From: Singulisphaera sp.
Lineage (GTDB): Bacteria; Planctomycetota; Planctomycetia; Isosphaerales; Isosphaeraceae
NCBI GenBank assembly: GCA_027451445.1
Contig: DAIDJG010000618.1
Span: 1 to 43,062, forward strand
Direction of reading: 5' to 3'
Length of the DNA: 43,062 nt
Numbering within the stretch: position 1 is the stretch's first letter; each line of letters begins with the position of its first letter. Position numbers and translations under genes: made by a program. Under the pieces are notes generated by a model, which was not told the origin of the DNA, made no database searches, and saw only the letters and a program-made list of their open reading frames with translations. Positions 2,833-9,397 of this stretch are shown in pieces.

Positions 2833-4263
2833 TCAGGGCTTACCGGACGAGGAATGCAGGTTCACGACTACGTGGGTGCTGTGGTGAGTGACCCGGGTGG
2901 GTCTCGGATGTAGGACGTTGACGTGCATCGCGTGGTGGGCGAGAGGTTGGGGTACGCTGTTGGGAACCGCCTTGAGTGCCTCGGCATAGGCGCTGAGCGA
3001 TCCGAGTTGGATCAGGTGAATTCCACCGTCGAGCAGGCTAACGAGACCGTCGACCAGTCCCCCGGCGAGGTTGAGCACTCCTCCGAGTAACCCGCCAAGT
3101 AATCCGCCGCCGGATCCGCTGGTTGAGGTTGTGTTCGAGGTTGTGTCCGCACTCGTACCTCCGCCCTGGTTCGCCTGGGCGGCGACCGTTGTGTTCTGGG
3201 GAGCGATGGAAGTCATCGTGCCACCGGTGAAGTTGACCAGCAAGCCATAACCGCCCGCTGTCCCGCCCGTGGTCGACGCGGCGGACGCGCGGAGGTAGTA
3301 GGTTTGGCCGGGAGTTACACCGTTGATGGTGACCGTGGCCGTCCCACCGAGTGATGTCACCGATGCCTGAGCCAGGCCAGTGACCTTCCCATTGTAGACG
3401 GTGACCCGGGGCTCGAGCAGGCTCAGGTTGCTCGACTGAATGGTGATGGTCATCGATCCATTGGTGTTCTGCGGGACGATGACCGAATACCAGTCAGCAT
3501 CTGTGGCGGCGGAGATCTGCTCGTTGGTCAACGTGGCCTGGCCGTTGCCGTTGAGCGCGACGGATGTGGCGTGGGATGCGCTGGTGTTCCCGGCGGTGTT
3601 GCTCCGGGCGCCGTAAACGCTCTGGATGCCACTGACGTCGTCGGTCGTCAAGCTTTGCTTCGTGCCATTGTAGTAGGCGTACATTGCGGCTGAGGTCAGG
3701 CTTGAGTGGTCCAATCCCAGCGAGTGGCCGATTTCGTGGATCGCGACGGTCGCAAGGTCGTAGCCGTTGGTGCCCCAGTTGACGTTGGAGTTAAAGATGA
3801 TGTCGCCGGCGGCGGAGCCGCCGTTTTTGGGCGGTGGCAAGAACGCGAAGGCAAGCTCACCACTTGGTTCGGGCATGGCGCCGATGCGGATATCGCCGAA
3901 ATTGGAAGCGCCTTGCTGATCAGTTCCAGACCCGACGGCTGAACCGTCGTCGGAAACTTGAACGAGATTGACTTTAGTGACGTCCTCCCACGCCGCGAAC
4001 GCCTTGGCGAGCGTCGTTTCCCAGGAGGAAGTGGAGGAGTACTGGTTGAGTGTGGAGAAGAGGGCGCTTGGGGTGCCCCCGATGCTCGTCCCATCGGGAA
4101 TCAGGCTGTAAGTGACGCGACCGGGGTACACCCAGTCGCCGCCGTTGACTGCGGAAAGGAGCTGGCGCTCTTCGAGACTCTCGATTTGCGGTTGATTCTT
4201 GCGAGTTTGGGCAGCGCGGCGATGTCGACCCTGACGACCACTGTCGTTGTGGTTTTTGAACAT
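2833..4263 (-). CDS. Secreted matrixin-type (M10) metalloprotease with PPC domain
   Basis: 476 residues from ATG 4261-4263 (a TTG at 4335 would add 24). A basic N-terminus leads to IESLEERQLLSAVNGG, the planctomycete LEPR-XLL-like motif of surface proteins. The metallopeptidase domain holds HEIGHSLGLDHS at residue 176 onward, a complete HExxHxxGxxH zinc site, followed by AAMYAYY, the Met-turn. Residues about 230-345 look like a bacterial pre-peptidase C-terminal (PPC) beta-sandwich (ATDADWYSVIVP, GVTPGQTYYLRA). A Thr/Ser linker, a Gly/Leu-rich segment (GGGLLGGLLGGVLNLAGG) and a His-rich tail follow. Predicted extracellular or wall-bound protease. A paralogue with a degenerate zinc site lies at 29164-31617. 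Confidence 0.88.
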   Translation of the reverse strand: MFKNHNDSGRQGRHRRAAQTRKNQPQIESLEERQLLSAVNGGDWVYPGRVTYSLIPDGTSIGGTPSALFSTLNQYSSTSSWETTLAKAFAAWEDVTKVNLVQVSDDGSAVGSGTDQQGASNFGDIRIGAMPEPSGELAFAFLPPPKNGGSAAGDIIFNSNVNWGTNGYDLATVAIHEIGHSLGLDHSSLTSAAMYAYYNGTKQSLTTDDVSGIQSVYGARSNTAGNTSASHATSVALNGNGQATLTNEQISAATDADWYSVIVPQNTNGSMTITIQSSNLSLLEPRVTVYNGKVTGLAQASVTSLGGTATVTINGVTPGQTYYLRASAASTTGGTAGGYGLLVNFTGGTMTSIAPQNTTVAAQANQGGGTSADTTSNTTSTSGSGGGLLGGLLGGVLNLAGGLVDGLVSLLDGGIHLIQLGSLSAYAEALKAVPNSVPQPLAHHAMHVNVLHPRPTRVTHHSTHVVVNLHSSSGKP

Positions 4264-4635
4264 GATTTCGAGAACCTCGAGTTTTGGTCTGCGGTTTTTA
4301 AAGTCGTTCAGTACAAGTGCTGGAGAGCTTTTCAACGGTCGCTTTGGGGAGGGAGGCTAGAAGACTGTCTACCCAAGTACCTATGCCCCGAATCGGGGCG
4401 TGTCCGACGCGTTGAGGAAAAGCGACGTTCGCCGAGAAGTTGCCGAACAACTCTTCCCCTGGGCCGGAGGAGTTGATCTATCGCGAGGCAGAATTGATAG
4501 CTCGCTCGGCGGGGCGCGACGTTGCGCGATGTGTGGTCCACTTGGCCGCATTCGGCTCAGGCGTGTTGGAACGCGTGGGAGCGGCGAGGCGCCGCGGCGC
4601 GGGATGGAAGTGCTCTGGATGGGTCGTCGAGGCAG
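4264..4635. other. Intergenic stretch between protease gene and tRNA array
   Basis: No supported gene. A short perfect dyad GCCCCGAATCGGGGC occurs near 4386-4400; it could form a hairpin in the transcript leaving the tRNA array, but no U-run follows it. Other open frames here are extensions of GC-rich noise. Confidence 0.45.
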
Positions 4636-4706
4636 AGACGCCGGTGGGAGTCGAACCCACTTCAACCGGGTTGCAGCCGGTCGCCTGGCCGTCTGGCTCC
4701 AGCGTC
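4636..4706 (-). tRNA. trnC-GCA: tRNA-Cys (GCA)
   Basis: Acceptor GACGCTG pairs with CGGCGTC; anticodon stem ACCGG/CCGGT encloses CTGCAAC; T arm GTGGG-TTCGACT-CCCAC; discriminator U, as expected for Cys. CCA is not encoded. Position 8 is G and position 14 reads as G, not the usual U8/A14. Last gene of the array. Confidence 0.9.
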
Positions 4707-4728
4707 ATCATGTTTGAGAACGAGACGA

Positions 4729-4801
4729 TGTCCTTGCCAGGAGTCGAACCTGGTCTCCGACCTTCGCAGGGTCGCGTGCGCATCCGTCACACTCCAAGGA
4801 C
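4729..4801 (-). tRNA. trnR-GCG: tRNA-Arg (GCG)
   Basis: Acceptor GTCCTTG/CAAGGAC is perfect; anticodon arm CGACC-CTGCGAA-GGTCG gives anticodon GCG, reading CGC/CGU. Most bacteria use ACG (inosine) here. G8 and G14 replace U8/A14. Discriminator A. Shares its D arm with the next two Arg genes. Confidence 0.88.
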
Positions 4802-4806
4802 CTGGA

Positions 4807-4877
4807 TCCTCCGCCCGGGAGTTGAACCCGGCCTTGCGGCTTCGAAGACCGCCGTGCGTCCGCCACACTCGCAGAGA
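4807..4877 (-). tRNA. trnR-TCG: tRNA-Arg (TCG)
   Basis: Acceptor TCTCTGC/GCGGAGG pairs with wobble pairs; anticodon arm GCGGT-CTTCGAA-GCCGC gives TCG for CGA codons. T arm CCGGG-TTCAACT-CCCGG. D arm matches the neighbouring Arg genes; G8/G14 again. Discriminator A. Confidence 0.85.
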
Positions 4878-4878
4878 G

Positions 4879-4951
4879 TGCCCTCGCCAGGAGTCGAACC
4901 TGGTCTGCGACCTTCGGAGGGTCGCGTGCGCGTCCGTCACACTCCAAGGGC
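4879..4951 (-). tRNA. trnR-CCG: tRNA-Arg (CCG)
   Basis: Acceptor GCCCTTG/CGAGGGC; anticodon arm CGACC-CTCCGAA-GGTCG gives CCG. Nearly identical to the Arg(GCG) gene outside the anticodon, so the two probably arose by duplication. G8/G14. Discriminator A. Confidence 0.88.
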
Positions 4952-4963
4952 TTCAATGAACAG

Positions 4964-5033
4964 CAGGGATGCAAGGATTCGAACCCTGTCCGCGAGTTTT
5001 GGAGGCTCGCTGCTCTCCCAGGAGCACACCCCT
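4964..5033 (-). tRNA. trnW-CCA: tRNA-Trp (CCA)
   Basis: Acceptor AGGGGTG/CATCCCT with discriminator G, typical of Trp; anticodon loop CTCCAAA gives CCA. The D arm is short (CTC-CTGGGA-GAG), giving only 70 nt in total. Follows the HNH gene by about 50 bp on the same strand. Confidence 0.85.
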
Positions 5034-5082
5034 GTATCGAGGCCCTCAACGTGATCGCGCTGAGGGCGGGAAACGTGTCGTG

Positions 5083-5673
5083 TCAGGCGGTCACGAGCGC
5101 GGGTTCGTGTGCCATGAACTTGGTCCAGCTCGCGATCCGAGCGCCCTGAGCGGCGTAGAACGGCTTCCACTCGGGTCGAACGGGTCGCTTGCGGAGCCGC
5201 ATTCCCGCCTGCTCGGGGGTGCGGTCGGCCTTGCGGGCGTTGCACTCGATGCAGGCGGCGACGCAGTTGATCCAGCTCGATGCTCCACCTTGAGAGCGCG
5301 GGAGGACGTGGTCGATCGTAATGGCCTCACTGCCCGGCTGCACACCGCAGTACTGGCACGTGTAGTGGTCACGCTTCGCGACGTTTCGCCGACTGAAGGT
5401 TACGGCGGTGCTGGGAAGCCGGTCGTAGTGGGCGAGGCTGATGACTTCGGGAACCCGAAGCCGCAGCCGGGCAGCCCGGACACAGGGCTCGCCGTCGATC
5501 GGCTCGAGGGCGGCCCAGTCCTCCCAGTCGTAGAGCCGGTACTCGTCGGGCTCGACGACCTTCGCGGTGTCGTTCCAGAGCATGACGAGCGCCCGTACCA
5601 CGTTGGTGACGTGGACCGGTTGCCATTGTCGGTTCAAGACCAGGGTCGGAAGCTCCAGCACGTTCGTCGTCAT
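5083..5673 (-). CDS. HNH endonuclease inside the tRNA array
   Basis: 196 residues. ATG 5671-5673 is chosen because GGAGG stands 5 nt upstream; a GTG 12 bp earlier is possible. The centre holds a zinc-ribbon HNH fold: YTCQYCG, then IDHVLPRSQGG (catalytic His) and NCVAACIECNARKADR (second Cys pair and His-Asn-like region). The N-terminal half (VLNRQWQPVHVTNVVRALVM) is conserved in a widespread bacterial HNH family of uncertain role. Such enzymes cut DNA with a metal ion. The gene lies between tRNA-Trp and tRNA-His on the array strand, so it is probably cotranscribed. HNH genes are common passengers of tRNA arrays in phages and mobile elements; a housekeeping role cannot be excluded. Confidence 0.9.
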   Translation of the reverse strand: MTTNVLELPTLVLNRQWQPVHVTNVVRALVMLWNDTAKVVEPDEYRLYDWEDWAALEPIDGEPCVRAARLRLRVPEVISLAHYDRLPSTAVTFSRRNVAKRDHYTCQYCGVQPGSEAITIDHVLPRSQGGASSWINCVAACIECNARKADRTPEQAGMRLRKRPVRPEWKPFYAAQGARIASWTKFMAHEPALVTA

Positions 5674-5702
5674 CGTCGCCTCCACGATAAGGTCACGATG
5701 AG

Positions 5703-5774
5703 GGTGCCTGACCGGACTCGAACCGGCGCCTTCTGCCTCACAAGCAGGCGTGCTGCCCTTACACCACAGGCACC
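5703..5774 (-). tRNA. trnH-GTG: tRNA-His (GTG)
   Basis: Acceptor GTGCCTG/CAGGCAC with an extra encoded G at -1 opposite discriminator C, the bacterial His signature. Anticodon loop TTGTGAG gives GTG. One mismatch at the 27-43 pair. Canonical U8/A14. Confidence 0.9.
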
Positions 5775-5805
5775 ATCACAGGACAAAAACCGGCCAACGC
5801 CGGAG

Positions 5806-5889
5806 CGGAAGGGGCGGGAGTCGAACCCGCAAGGCTCTCGCTCGCCCGCTTTCCAAGCGGGTCCCGTCACCGGGTCGGGTAGCCCTTCC
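5806..5889 (-). tRNA. trnS-GGA: tRNA-Ser (GGA)
   Basis: Class II tRNA: acceptor GGAAGGG/CCCTTCC, anticodon arm CCCGC-TTGGAAA-GCGGG, long variable arm, discriminator G. Position 8 is C instead of U. Confidence 0.9.
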
Positions 5890-5911
5890 GAATCGGATAC
5901 AAGACTTCGAG

Positions 5912-5984
5912 TGATCCCGGGTGGACTCGAACCACCGCTCTTCCCCACGTCAAAGGGATGTCTTCGCCGCTAGACGACGGGACC
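5912..5984 (-). tRNA. trnV-GAC: tRNA-Val (GAC)
   Basis: Acceptor GGTCCCG/CGGGATC with one G-U pair; anticodon stem TCCCT/GGGGA encloses TTGACGT, giving GAC. Discriminator A, T arm GTGG-type. Canonical U8/A14. Confidence 0.85.
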
Positions 5985-6001
5985 GATTGATCATTCGCAA
6001 G

Positions 6002-6074
6002 CACCCCGACCAGGACTCGAACCCGGAACTCCTCGTTAGAAGCGAGGTGTGATCGTCCGTTTCACCATCGGGGC
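6002..6074 (-). tRNA. trnR-TCT: tRNA-Arg (TCT)
   Basis: Acceptor GCCCCGA/TCGGGGT; anticodon arm CCTCG-CTTCTAA-CGAGG gives TCT. Discriminator G. Its sequence closely resembles the reconstructed split tRNA-Arg(CCT) next to it. Confidence 0.88.
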
Positions 6075-6079
6075 CAGAA

Positions 6080-6124
6080 TGTCCCGACCAGGACTCGAAC
6101 CCGGAACCCCTCGTTAGGACCGAG
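6080..6124 (-). pseudogene. 3' half of interrupted tRNA-Arg (CCT)
   Basis: From the anticodon loop to the discriminator this is a good tRNA: loop GTCCTAA, stem CGAGG, T arm CCGGG-TTCGAGT-CCTGG, acceptor TCGGGAC and A73. Upstream of CTCGGTCCTAA the sequence no longer fits an acceptor or D arm. The matching 5' half is at 8107-8145. Joined at the shared 11 bp the halves give a 73-nt tRNA with seven acceptor pairs and a perfect CCTCG/CGAGG anticodon stem. Confidence 0.85.
6114..6124 (+). repeat. Left attachment-site core
   Basis: TTAGGACCGAG, the left copy of the 11-bp direct repeat. It covers the anticodon loop and 5' anticodon stem of the interrupted tRNA-Arg(CCT). Flanking bases differ between the two copies, which fixes the length at 11. 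Confidence 0.75.
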
Positions 6125-6245
6125 CCAAAACCACCAACATCGGACGTTAGTCGTTACCCCATAATGCTTTGCGTGCTGTCGTTTTGCGGCATCTCCAACG
6201 AGGGATTGCGGAGATTCCCCGAAGCCTCGCTAGCACCGAATTTCG

Positions 6246-6272
6246 CCGAAAACGGTGATTGAAACGGTGACT
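6246..6272 (+). repeat. Element-end repeat, left copy
   Basis: Two copies of AAACGGTGA within 27 bp, 122 bp inside the left core. The right-end copy at 8018-8043 has the same layout and orientation, with one base less in the spacer. Candidate arm-type recombinase or replication sites. Confidence 0.6.
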
Positions 6273-6402
6273 TCGGGATCGCCGGTTACTTATCAACCGC
6301 ACATGTCAAGCAGACGCGGTGAAGATCAGAAAGGTTCGGGGGGAAACTCGACGTATCCAAACTGGGACTCTGGCAACGGGTCGCGTACCGAGTAACGGAA
6401 AT

Positions 6403-6572
6403 GGCTCAAGATGGGTTGCAGGGTGGTGGTTCCGCTAGTTTCGCCGCAAGTCCTTGATCCGTAGGGAGTTGTCGCCTCGGGGAGGAGTTGCCGTCCCCTG
6501 GCTCTAAGTCGTGACAGGGCATGACGTTACACCGAATTGGTCGAGTCACCACTCTGATACCCATCTTGAGCC
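6403..6572. repeat. 14-bp inverted repeat enclosing 142 bp
   Basis: GGCTCAAGATGGGT at 6403-6416 is exactly inverted at 6559-6572. The layout resembles the ends of a small MITE, but no target duplication is evident at the borders. It could instead form a long cruciform or RNA stem. Confidence 0.45.
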
Positions 6573-6948
6573 TTAATCAAAACGCTCTGCGTTACCATTG
6601 AGAAGACTTCGGGCTGGAAGGCCACGGCGAAGACCGGGATCGCCGCCATCCTTTCCCCCAGCACAACACCTTCAGCGCCCAAGCGGTTTGTCAAGATTGG
6701 CTCGACGCTGGTAATTCTGGCGCCGCCCGATAGAATAGGGGATCTCCGCTAGGTACAGGCCCTAATTACGAAGACGCACTTCCCTCGCCATTACCGGATG
6801 CCATGCCACAAAATATTTCTCTCTGAACTACGAATAGCAGGCTATGGACGTGGTGACTTGGGTCAGCACAATTCTCACCTTTGGCAGTGTGCTTACGCCA
6901 AACTTGACGTTTGATGTGTTTCATAGGCCTTCAACCAGGAGCGGACAG

Positions 6949-7539
6949 ATGTTGAGCGGACGTCTTCGACTCGCGCTGATTCTCGGCATGACACTTCTGG
7001 TCGGAGGGGCACACGTCTTTTCTCAGCAGCCACCGCAGAATAAGCAGCACACCACATCTCATGAAGTGACGCGTCTAATCCAACTCCTTGATGATCCGAA
7101 TCCAACCGTCCGAAAACAAGCTGTCATCGCCTTGAGTGAGATTAGCAACTCAATTCACAAATCGCTTCAGGCACATCTTACCGATGAAAATGCCGAAGTT
7201 AGATCCGCCGTGGCCGAAGCGCTTGATCATAAAGATGCCAAGGCTACAACGCCCAAAAACTCAACGCTTCCCACGGAAGTCTGTCAAAGCTGTAAGGGAG
7301 CAAGAAACGTTCAAACGAAATGTGAACGGTGTAGAGGTACAGGAGATGAAAAATGCCTCAACTGCAATGGTACGGGCAAAACTATAAATATCCTCGACAA
7401 GGAAGTTGCTTGTTACAAGTGTAATGGTGCCGGCAAAAACACATGTACGTATTTTCAATGCAAGGGCACAGGAACTTACGAAGACCGATGTGCCAAATGT
7501 AAGGGAGTGGGATACACTATTCGATTGTTTAGCCAATAA
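6949..7539 (+). CDS. Secreted HEAT-repeat protein with DnaJ-type zinc-finger repeats
   Basis: 196 residues from ATG 6949, which has GGAG 7 nt upstream; an ATG at 6844 lacks this. A signal peptide of about 25 residues (LRLALILGMTLLVGGAHVFS) precedes two HEAT-like repeats (LIQLLDDPNPTVRKQAVIAL and a LTDENAEVRSAVAEAL unit). The C-terminal half has at least five CxxCxG(x)G units (CQSCKGA, CERCRGTG, CLNCNGTG, CYKCNGAG, CAKCKGVG), the DnaJ central-domain pattern that binds two zinc ions; no J domain is present. Likely a periplasmic or surface protein-binding factor. Codon use is visibly richer in A and T than the surrounding genes, consistent with its place inside the insertion. Confidence 0.82.
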   Translation: MLSGRLRLALILGMTLLVGGAHVFSQQPPQNKQHTTSHEVTRLIQLLDDPNPTVRKQAVIALSEISNSIHKSLQAHLTDENAEVRSAVAEALDHKDAKATTPKNSTLPTEVCQSCKGARNVQTKCERCRGTGDEKCLNCNGTGKTINILDKEVACYKCNGAGKNTCTYFQCKGTGTYEDRCAKCKGVGYTIRLFSQ

Positions 7540-7569
7540 ATCGCCTCTTTTCGCATTTCGTTCAATGTC

Positions 7570-7689
7570 ATGCCCCTGGTTTCTATTAATGAATCAACTT
7601 CGACGCAGGTCGAGTGTGCCGATGAGCACTCACGCGAGCATACGCGGACGGCGCATGACCACCACTTCCGGCTGCGACTAGCACAGTAA
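7570..7689 (+). CDS. Tiny possible gene inside the insertion
   Basis: A 39-codon frame beginning MPLVSINESTSTQVECADEH and ending RLAQ. Its stop overlaps the next frame's ATG as TAATG, an arrangement typical of translational coupling. No ribosome site or family recognised; it may be the remnant of a longer gene. Confidence 0.2.
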   Translation: MPLVSINESTSTQVECADEHSREHTRTAHDHHFRLRLAQ

Positions 7690-7790
7690 TGGGCGGCACG
7701 GCCGGGCATACCAAGTTCGGCCATCTGCTTGGCTGGCACTACTCGACGCTCTGGCGCAACCTGAACGGCAAGTGTGGTCGGCCAAGATAA
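7689..7790 (+). CDS. Tiny possible DNA-binding remnant
   Basis: A 33-codon frame coupled by TAATG to the one before. Its translation contains KFGHLLGWHYSTLWRNLNGK, which has the spacing of a recognition helix in small helix-turn-helix proteins, and ends GRPR. It could be the tail of a decayed excisionase or regulator. Tentative. Confidence 0.25.
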   Translation: MGGTAGHTKFGHLLGWHYSTLWRNLNGKCGRPR

Positions 7791-7877
7791 TCGACGTGAA
7801 ATCCGCCGTTTCTGATCAACTTCTCCGATTACCCGATCCGATGAACTGGTGATCCAGGCGGTGTTGACCAAACGTAG

Positions 7878-7951
7878 CACCCCGGGCAGGACTCGAACCC
7901 GCAACCTCGACCTTAGGAGAGTCTCGCTCTTTCCAGTTGAGCTACCGGGGC
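7878..7951 (-). tRNA. trnR-CCT: tRNA-Arg (CCT), intact, carried by the insertion
   Basis: Acceptor GCCCCGG/CCGGGGT, canonical D arm GCTCAACTGGAAAGAGC with U8/A14, anticodon loop CTCCTAA giving CCT, T arm GCGGG-TTCGAGT-CCTGC, discriminator G. The sequence differs from the interrupted host gene, so it is not simply a duplicate. It has the most orthodox D arm of any tRNA in the window and supplies the isoacceptor the insertion destroyed. Confidence 0.85.
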
Positions 7952-8017
7952 GAAAAGAGGCGGGATACATGCTCATCGGTGACAATCCATGTGATTCATG
8001 GAAGCGGTGGACGATGC

Positions 8018-8043
8018 CCGAAAACGGTGACTAAACGGTGACT
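8018..8043 (+). repeat. Element-end repeat, right copy
   Basis: CCGAAAACGGTGA followed by CTAAACGGTGACT, matching the left-end copy at 6246-6272 in direct orientation and lying 63 bp inside the right core. Confidence 0.6.
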
Positions 8044-8106
8044 GTGCGATGCAAAGTGAACGAAAACGCCTTGTTTTATAGGGTTTTCTGACCGCGTCAA
8101 TCCTGC

Positions 8107-8117
8107 TTAGGACCGAG
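8107..8117 (+). repeat. Right attachment-site core
   Basis: TTAGGACCGAG, the right copy of the 11-bp direct repeat, continuous with the 5' half of the interrupted tRNA-Arg(CCT). Confidence 0.75.
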
Positions 8118-8145
8118 GAATGATGATCCGTTTCACCACCGGGAC
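8107..8145 (-). pseudogene. 5' half of interrupted tRNA-Arg (CCT)
   Basis: Acceptor GTCCCGG, U8, D arm GTG-AAACGGATCAT-CAT, anticodon 5' stem CCTCG and loop up to GTCCTAA; then the match to a tRNA ends. Pairs with the 3' half at 6080-6124 and closely resembles the D arm of tRNA-Arg(TCT) at 6002-6074. Confidence 0.85.
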
Positions 8146-8156
8146 AACTTCACAAG

Positions 8157-8242
8157 CGGAAGGCAAGGGATTCGAACCCTTACGCCCTTTCAGGCGCACT
8201 CGTTAGCACCGAGGCCCGGCCAACCGTATCCGGCTACCTTCC
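8157..8242 (-). tRNA. trnS-GCT: tRNA-Ser (GCT)
   Basis: Class II tRNA: acceptor GGAAGGT/GCCTTCC, anticodon arm CCTCG-GTGCTAA-CGAGT, long variable arm, T arm AAGGG-TTCGAAT-CCCTT, discriminator G. Position 8 is A. First array gene to the right of the insertion. Confidence 0.88.
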
Positions 8243-8255
8243 GTTTGACTGCGAG

Positions 8256-8326
8256 TGGACCCACCGGGAGTCGAACCCGGACCTCCGCCACGCCAGGGCG
8301 GTGCCATTCCGTTAGGCCATGAGCCC
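8256..8326 (-). tRNA. trnA-GGC: tRNA-Ala (GGC)
   Basis: Acceptor GGGCTCA/TGGGTCC contains G3-U70, the alanine identity pair. Anticodon arm CCGCC-CTGGCGT-GGCGG; discriminator A. Confidence 0.9.
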
Positions 8327-8340
8327 GTCATTACTGACAG

Positions 8341-8411
8341 TGGACCGCCGGGGAGTCGAACCCCGTTCTCCTGGTTGCAGGCCAGGTGTCTTTCCATTCG
8401 ACCAGCAGCCC
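8341..8411 (-). tRNA. trnA-TGC: tRNA-Ala (TGC), with C33
   Basis: Acceptor GGGCTGC/GCGGTCC keeps G3-U70 and A73, pointing to alanine. A perfect CCTGG/CCAGG stem encloses CCTGCAA, giving anticodon TGC but with C in place of the near-universal U33. Shifting by one gives GCA (Cys) with U33 but breaks the stem. Confidence 0.75.
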
Positions 8412-8426
8412 AACTTCGTCACCGAG

Positions 8427-8498
8427 AGGTCCGCCCGGGAATCGAACCCGGTCCACCTCCTTACCATGGAGGAGTGCCGCCGGTAACACCTGCGGACC
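8427..8498 (-). tRNA. trnT-GGT: tRNA-Thr (GGT)
   Basis: Acceptor GGTCCGC/GCGGACC perfect; anticodon arm CCTCC-ATGGTAA-GGAGG. Position 8 is A and position 14 reads T, a swap of the usual U8/A14. Discriminator U. Confidence 0.88.
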
Positions 8499-8526
8499 GT
8501 TCGCGAGAGAGTCGTCTTTGCGAGAG

Positions 8527-8598
8527 AGGTCCGCCCGGGAATTGAACCCGGTCCGCCTCTTTACAAGAGAGGCATGCTCCCGGAAACACCTGCGGACC
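8527..8598 (-). tRNA. trnT-TGT: tRNA-Thr (TGT)
   Basis: Same acceptor and T arm as the GGT gene; anticodon arm CCTCT-CTTGTAA-AGAGG. Again A8 with T14. The two Thr genes look like duplicates that diverged in the anticodon arm. Confidence 0.88.
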
Positions 8599-8611
8599 CT
8601 TCACAAGTGAG

Positions 8612-8683
8612 TCGTCCCGGAGGGAATCGAACCCCCGTTGCCTCTTTGTAAGAGAGGAGTCGTAGCCGTTGGACCACGGGACG
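8612..8683 (-). tRNA. trnV-TAC: tRNA-Val (TAC)
   Basis: Acceptor CGTCCCG/CGGGACG; anticodon arm CCTCT-CTTACAA-AGAGG; discriminator A; canonical U8/A14. Confidence 0.87.
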
Positions 8684-8701
8684 TGAACATCAACACTTCA
8701 G

Positions 8702-8775
8702 TAGCACGGGAGGGAGTCGAACCCACAAACACCAGAATCTCATTCTGGCCGCTGTGCCAGTTTGCGTACCGTGCC
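8702..8775 (-). tRNA. trnL-GAG: tRNA-Leu (GAG), short variable loop
   Basis: Acceptor GGCACGG/CCGTGCT, D arm CGCAAACTGGCACAGCG, anticodon arm CCAGA-ATGAGAT-TCTGG, then a variable loop of only 5 nt (TGTTT), T arm and A73. Bacterial Leu tRNAs normally have a long variable arm. One T-stem mismatch. Confidence 0.78.
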
Positions 8776-8786
8776 ATTCGTTGCAG

Positions 8787-8855
8787 TTGCGGGTCGGGGA
8801 GTTGAACCACCGCTTCCGAGTTTATGAGGCTCAGTTGAGCACCGGCCCACCCGCA
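8787..8855 (-). tRNA. Degenerate tRNA with anticodon CAT
   Basis: Acceptor TGCGGGT/ACCCGCA is perfect and CTCATAA gives anticodon CAT, but the D arm is too short to form a stem, the T stem has two mismatches and the 31-39 pair is C-A. Only 69 nt. Probably a decaying or highly atypical Met/Ile2 tRNA. Confidence 0.5.
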
Positions 8856-8868
8856 ATTCGTCTTCGAG

Positions 8869-8938
8869 TCCCAGACCCCGGTATCGAGCCGGGCGCATCG
8901 GCCTTATGAAAGCCAACCGGGCACCTGCCACGCCTGGG
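8869..8938 (-). tRNA. Atypical tRNA with anticodon CAT
   Basis: Acceptor CCCAGGC/GTCTGGG, anticodon arm TGGCT-TTCATAA-GGCCG, T stem CCCGG/CCGGG. The T loop is CTCGATA (C54 instead of T54) and the D arm is compressed to about 14 nt. Elongator Met or Ile2 cannot be told apart; it may be non-functional. Confidence 0.6.
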
Positions 8939-8956
8939 TTTTCCATTACTGATCAG

Positions 8957-9029
8957 TAGCCCTGACGGGAGTCGAACCCGCTTCTCCACCTTGAGAGGGT
9001 GGTGTCCTGTGCCGGTAGACGACAGGGCC
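8957..9029 (-). tRNA. trnE-CTC: tRNA-Glu (CTC)
   Basis: Acceptor GGCCCTG/CAGGGCT; D arm GTC-TACCGGCACAG-GAC; anticodon arm CCACC-CTCTCAA-GGTGG; T arm GCGGG-TTCGACT-CCCGT; discriminator A. Confidence 0.88.
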
Positions 9030-9044
9030 ATTTCGTTCAGAGAG

Positions 9045-9128
9045 TGCGCCGGGACGGAATCGAACCGCCAGGTCCCCGAAGGGAGCGTGGTTTACAGCCA
9101 CGGGGGCCCACCAATGCCCAGCCGACGC
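9045..9128 (-). tRNA. trnY-GTA: tRNA-Tyr (GTA)
   Basis: Class II tRNA of 84 nt: acceptor GCGTCGG/CCGGCGC, anticodon arm CGTGG-CTGTAAA-CCACG, long variable arm with CCC-TTC-GGGG hairpin, discriminator A. Position 8 is C. Confidence 0.9.
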
Positions 9129-9149
9129 GAATCTTTCTGTATCGTGCGA

Positions 9150-9224
9150 TCGCACGGGTGGGAGTCGAACCCACACATCACCAAGGTTTGAGCTTGGCCG
9201 CTTTGCCGGTTTGCGTACCGTGCG
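9150..9224 (-). tRNA. trnL-CAA: tRNA-Leu (CAA), short variable loop
   Basis: Acceptor CGCACGG/CCGTGCG, D arm nearly identical to the Leu(GAG) gene, anticodon arm CCAAG-CTCAAAC-CTTGG, variable loop of 6 nt, perfect T stem GTGGG/CCCAC, A73. All helices are intact, so it does not look like a decayed copy. Confidence 0.82.
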
Positions 9225-9233
9225 TTGCGTCAG

Positions 9234-9307
9234 CGCCCTCGACGGGAGTTGAACCCGCAAGCTCCTGGTTGACCGCCAGGCGAGCCTCCCACCGACTCTA
9301 CGAGGGC
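9234..9307 (-). tRNA. trnD-GTC: tRNA-Asp (GTC), with G33
   Basis: Acceptor GCCCTCG/CGAGGGC perfect, discriminator G as in Asp, anticodon stem CCTGG/CCAGG enclosing CGGTCAA. The anticodon reads GTC but position 33 is G instead of U. Confidence 0.75.
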
Positions 9308-9323
9308 ATCGTTCTTTTCGGAG

Positions 9324-9397
9324 TGGCCCAGGAGGGATTCGAACCCTCAGCATCTCTCGTTCTAAGCGAGAGTGGTCTGCCGGTTGCCTACCGGGCC
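9324..9397 (-). tRNA. trnL-TAG: tRNA-Leu (TAG), short variable loop
   Basis: Acceptor GGCCCGG/CTGGGCC, anticodon stem CTCTCG/CGAGAG (six pairs) enclosing CTTAGAA, short variable loop, T arm GAGGG-TTCGAAT-CCCTC, A73. First tRNA of the array, 16 nt after the boxA motif. Confidence 0.82.

Follow-up and report, generated by a model that had tools for sequence, protein, structure and literature searches.

A planctomycete array tRNA-Arg(CCU) gene split by the probable remnant of an element carrying its own tRNA-Arg(CCU)

In this study, we describe a 73-nt tRNA-Arg(CCU) gene of Singulisphaera sp. whose anticodon loop is interrupted by an insert of 1,982 bp; this insert brings along another, intact tRNA-Arg(CCU). 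The gene belongs to a tRNA array within the window, i.e. the whole stretch of DNA that was analysed (43,062 nucleotides, contig DAIDJG010000618.1 of assembly GCA_027451445.1). The insert is very probably the remnant of an element which an integrase placed in an accessory array tRNA gene, and which carried its own tRNA without making the cell dependent on it.

Results

The 5' half of the interrupted gene lies at 8107..8145 and the 3' half at 6080..6124, both on the minus strand and both including the core. Joined at the core (8145..8107 + 6124..6080), they adopt a canonical tRNA-Arg(CCT) fold of 73 nt with complete stems. The core, TTAGGACCGAG, is present at 6114..6124 and at 8107..8117 (plus strand) and nowhere else in the 10.9-Mb assembly, which was searched as a whole. 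Its 11 bp comprise 4 bp of the 5' strand of the anticodon stem and the 7-nt anticodon loop, a length within the range of the short cores (~10 bp) of elements that do not rebuild their target. The attB thus overlaps a host tRNA gene, the tRNA is rebuilt at neither junction, and attP contains no gene half that would restore it, sharing with the gene these 11 bp only. A sequence-only reading of the locus had proposed the two halves some 2 kb apart with their common junction sequence, the complete joined tRNA, the different intact tRNA-Arg(CCT) between the halves and a tRNA-targeting element that restores the gene at neither end and brings a tRNA of the same isoacceptor. All of this was borne out. 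That reading did not mention the tRNA array at 4635-9397, of whose more than 20 genes the split gene is one.

In the reconstructed attP, the core is flanked by two pairs of direct repeats, AAACGGTGA, which are putative arm-type sites of an integrase. One pair (6250..6270, plus strand) is placed 136 and 148 bp from the core start, the other (8022..8041, plus strand) 85 and 74 bp from it on the other side. The core between the pairs can also be written CTCGGTCCTAA. AAACGGTGA occurs four times in the 43-kb window (0.29 expected), each time within the insert and twice per side of the core, and no other site in the genome has the repeat pair. Of the words that occur two times in each arm, the longest measures 9 bases; in 3,000 dinucleotide shuffles it never exceeded 6. 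Paired arm-type sites on both sides of the core are likewise a feature of attP of the lambda/L5 type. Three matches to the AAACGGTGA pair in viral contigs were read as unrelated coding or simple-repeat sequence. Anticodon loop and stem are the classical place of tyrosine integrase crossover in tRNA genes (PMC8371274, PMC4383910). Core, paired repeats and the empty site described below together make integrase-mediated integration the best reading, although the AAACGGTGA repeats could alternatively be operator sites instead of integrase arm sites.

An uninterrupted gene in a close relative had been proposed as a check of the insertion, and it was found in the same-genus genome G009, 92% identical to the joined halves and colinear with the joined window flanks over ~265 bp, from tRNA-Ser(GCU) to tRNA-Arg(UCU). 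The array tRNA-Arg(CCU) is also intact in genome G013 and, beside tRNA-Arg(UCU), in L197 and L199, two further genomes of the class. A scan of 397 class genomes, with at most two candidates scored in each, showed the two halves in this genome only. A survey of other arrays for such halves likewise recognised element-sized splits in this genome only, among loci of which many span just 3 kb and in which degenerate tRNAs are common. Given the uninterrupted gene in relatives and the halves in one of the 397 genomes, the insertion is derived, and probably recent.

The insert (6125..8106) is unrelated at the DNA level to any other part of its genome, and a second copy of the element was found neither there nor in 44 related genomes, so that its ends are defined by one insertion and the empty site. 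Its only sizeable ORF (6844..7539, plus strand) encodes 231 aa with HEAT repeats and Cys motifs resembling a DnaJ-type zinc finger; the protein has no relative in the 44 other genomes of the family and no match in viral contigs. A small helix-turn-helix (HTH) gene at ~7655..7850 (plus strand) is broken; its relatives adjoin tRNA-Leu and tRNA-Asp genes in family members. GC content is lower in 6750-7750. A MITE-like stretch of 170 bp (6403..6572) with 26-bp terminal inverted repeats (88%) lies inside the element, and its end has short matches at three places in genome G043. Scanning the insert for promoters revealed no sigma-70-like site, and terminator-like sites were at chance level. Compared with phages and plasmids, the insert DNA matched by its tRNA alone (~75-82%) among the matches listed. 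No integrase or recognisable integrase remnant was found in the insert, and ten frame-wise peptides compared with PHROGs for hidden integrase fragments gave no match. With no integrase left the insert is probably a relic, and the broken gene together with the MITE-like insert suggests decay; we infer a decayed remnant.

The tRNA-Arg(CCU) carried by the element (7877..7951, minus strand, 55.8 bits) is of the housekeeping and not of the array type, its D arm reading GTAGCTCA as compared to GGTGAAACGGA in array genes. Its identity to the tRNA-Arg(CCU) of the host itself is ~68%, and, judged by its sequence, it is probably foreign. The host's canonical tRNA-Arg(CCU) (70.9 bits) is located at G000:C240:7069-7142 in tandem with tRNA-Arg(UCU). 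The tRNA genes of this draft assembly (622 contigs, 4.77% estimated contamination) were gathered by regions; of 261 candidates in the tRNA search, 150 were scored. Even though the canonical copy lies on a separate contig, its conservation argues that it is native: of 45 family genomes, 44 contain a match to the C240 tRNA-Arg stretch, among them G009 (88% over 181 bp).

The target of the element is an array segment at 4635..9397 (minus strand) with 22 ARAGORN genes, the element tRNA included, and two tRNA-Met-like genes that escaped detection. Between tRNA-His and tRNA-Trp it contains an HNH endonuclease-family gene (5083..5685, minus strand), which is conserved there in other planctomycetes. 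Close relatives of this gene occupy the same array place in other planctomycetes; of the more distant relatives checked, most are not close to any tRNA array. The window and G009, whose array counts 37 ARAGORN genes from Phe to Cys, have in common the order Ser(GCU)-Arg(CCU)-Arg(UCU)-Val(GAC)-Ser(GGA)-His-[HNH in window]-Trp-Arg-Arg-Arg-Cys. Arrays with the HNH gene are also present in other planctomycete records, and array-type tRNA-Arg genes in 81 of the 397 genomes of the class. A separate canonical tRNA set of the genome scores mostly higher than the array genes; a large array of partly degraded tRNA genes thus stands beside a full canonical set, as in known degenerate clusters. Across planctomycete families (L174, L175, L089-L103, L191-L213) the array recurs in near-fixed order as a second, degenerate isoacceptor set, in many cases with the HNH gene. 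Some array tRNA genes (L091 8431-8534, L099 177-291) contain short internal insertions of ~25-35 nt and appear degenerate.

The array is also interrupted at tRNA-Gln(UUG), on contigs C410 (G000:C410:1-3708, L028) and C433 (G000:C433:1-660, L178). On C410 a restored tRNA-Gln(UUG) (3638-3708) stands beside a tyrosine integrase (PF00589, 9.4e-15). At the start of C433 is a frame resembling an integrase N-terminus; behind it, at ~520-578, lies the displaced 3' half of tRNA-Gln(UUG). The two contigs have a hairpin-like end in common, by which the tyrosine integrase is apparently split across both and through which they would be joined. A small ORF near 1368-1534 in this element is excisionase-like. 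The tRNA-Gln(UUG) element is of the conventional, target-restoring kind, unlike the window element. The array itself stops after tRNA-Leu(UAG) (window 9398 onward), and the next gene expected, tRNA-Leu(UAA), sits on C433 after 851, suggesting a further large insertion or rearrangement. Outside the array, three tyrosine-integrase genes (G000, C117:52879-53376, C365:11013-11528 and C536:17172-17648) are convergent with canonical tRNA-Cys, tRNA-Met and tRNA-His, respectively, at a distance of ~140-250 bp. From this proximity, the canonical tRNA set seems to be targeted by elements as well.

Discussion

The sequence-only reading had regarded the element as an addiction-like device which disables the only tRNA-Arg(CCU) of the cell and thereby forces dependence on its own copy. 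Junctions that do not restore the gene and a tRNA of the same isoacceptor inside the insert would fit such a device. However, the host isoacceptor is not disabled, as the insertion hit a surplus copy within a degenerate array, one that is missing at this slot in the arrays of many relatives. Another intact CCT gene, which that reading had itself named as evidence against addiction, exists at C240:7069-7142 and, as noted, its stretch is matched almost throughout the family. The disrupted tRNA gene is therefore neither essential nor the sole copy; the array gene is redundant, no addiction follows from its loss, and we consider the addiction reading highly improbable. Instead of a new addiction device, the insert appears to be what is left of a strategy already known from phages.

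Direct repeats of 11 bp would fit some IS families, and the core might accordingly be a target-site duplication left by a transposon that hit a tRNA gene by chance. Against this, the insert has no terminal inverted repeats at its ends and no transposase ORF, hence neither feature of a DDE transposon, and the repeat coincides with the part of the tRNA gene, anticodon loop and stem, where integrases classically cross over (PMC8371274, PMC4383910). The paired repeats on both sides of the core also speak against transposition, which appears very unlikely. tRNA introns typically sit in the anticodon loop, and examples of the group I type are known from tRNA-Arg(CCU), which would favour an intron or a split tRNA gene with halves joined as RNA. 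Covariance models of group I and group II introns gave no match in 6000-8250 even at a lenient threshold, splicing would have to remove the duplicated core, another tRNA gene lies inside the insert, and G009, the sole same-genus relative compared, is without it; an intron is extremely improbable. Integration by an integrase being preferred, the element might still be mobile, with a different cellular integrase acting in trans. Its att-like ends are intact, the paired repeats are preserved, and the genome has several tyrosine integrases, some of them near tRNA genes. Set against these points are the lack of a second copy in the genome and the signs of decay in the broken gene and the MITE-like insert. 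Moreover, no resident integrase shows matching sites, since the repeat pair is present nowhere else in the genome. A non-autonomous element of this kind is unlikely.

We thus return to a remnant of an integrase-inserted element. A tyrosine integrase would have recombined this element into the anticodon loop of the accessory, array-borne tRNA-Arg(CCU). The attP of the element presumably shared just 11 bp with the gene, which would therefore have been split and not restored. The element would have brought its own tRNA-Arg(CCU), in the layout of tRNA-dependent lysogeny, and it may once have been mobile. Afterwards the integrase would have been lost and at least one gene, the HTH gene, broken. Whatever function the carried tRNA may have had or may still have, it would be dispensable for survival and the insertion probably neutral, because the canonical host tRNA-Arg(CCU) is kept elsewhere.

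The layout in which a tRNA gene is not restored and a replacement is supplied has been described before, under the name of tRNA-dependent lysogeny (Guerrero-Bustamante and Hatfull 2024, PMC10865867). In this system, reported for actinobacteriophages (Fionnbharth, cluster L, Gaia), recombination at a core of ~10 bp leaves the tRNA unreconstructed, and a phage tRNA of the same isotype replaces the essential one that is lost. The window element has the non-restoring junctions and the carried replacement tRNA in common with these phages. It differs in being only 2 kb long, in having no integrase or phage genes and in its planctomycete host; furthermore, its target is a redundant array copy, another host tRNA-Arg(CCU) is present and dependence is absent. 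Two defining features fail, as an element-encoded tyrosine integrase was not found in the insert and the disrupted gene is not the sole copy. It is therefore best described as a relic with the architecture of tRNA-dependent integration, and not as a member of this group.

Conventional tDNA islands (Islander; PMC4383910) also include insertions at the anticodon-loop subsite, as in the window, but they supply the gene half that is lost and rebuild the tRNA; the window element does neither. In Sinorhizobium meliloti, phage-related insertions substitute a host tRNA gene by a foreign one (PMC11476347), which resembles the window layout outside the Actinobacteria. These phage-related sequences measure 3 to 89 kb, whereas the remnant in the accessory array of the window is small. 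Clusters of degenerate tRNA genes in planctomycetes have been reported before, and the split gene sits in such a cluster with conserved gene order; in the part of that report available to us, insertion of an element carrying a replacement tRNA is not described (PMC4807772). What is new here is the host group, the array as target, the absence of dependence, and the presence, in this array, of a conventional element that restores its target, tRNA-Gln(UUG).

These findings extend a layout known mainly from actinobacteriophages to planctomycetes, and show it at a redundant target, which leaves no room for dependence. The array of this genome has received two independent insertions, one restoring its target and one replacing it. 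One might speculate that the conserved second planctomycete tRNA set serves as a sacrificial landing pad, spare array genes being hit instead of essential ones and some elements stemming from lineages that must bring their own tRNA, an idea to which we give little credence at present. The findings also point to the widespread planctomycete tRNA array as a landing site of tRNA-targeting elements.
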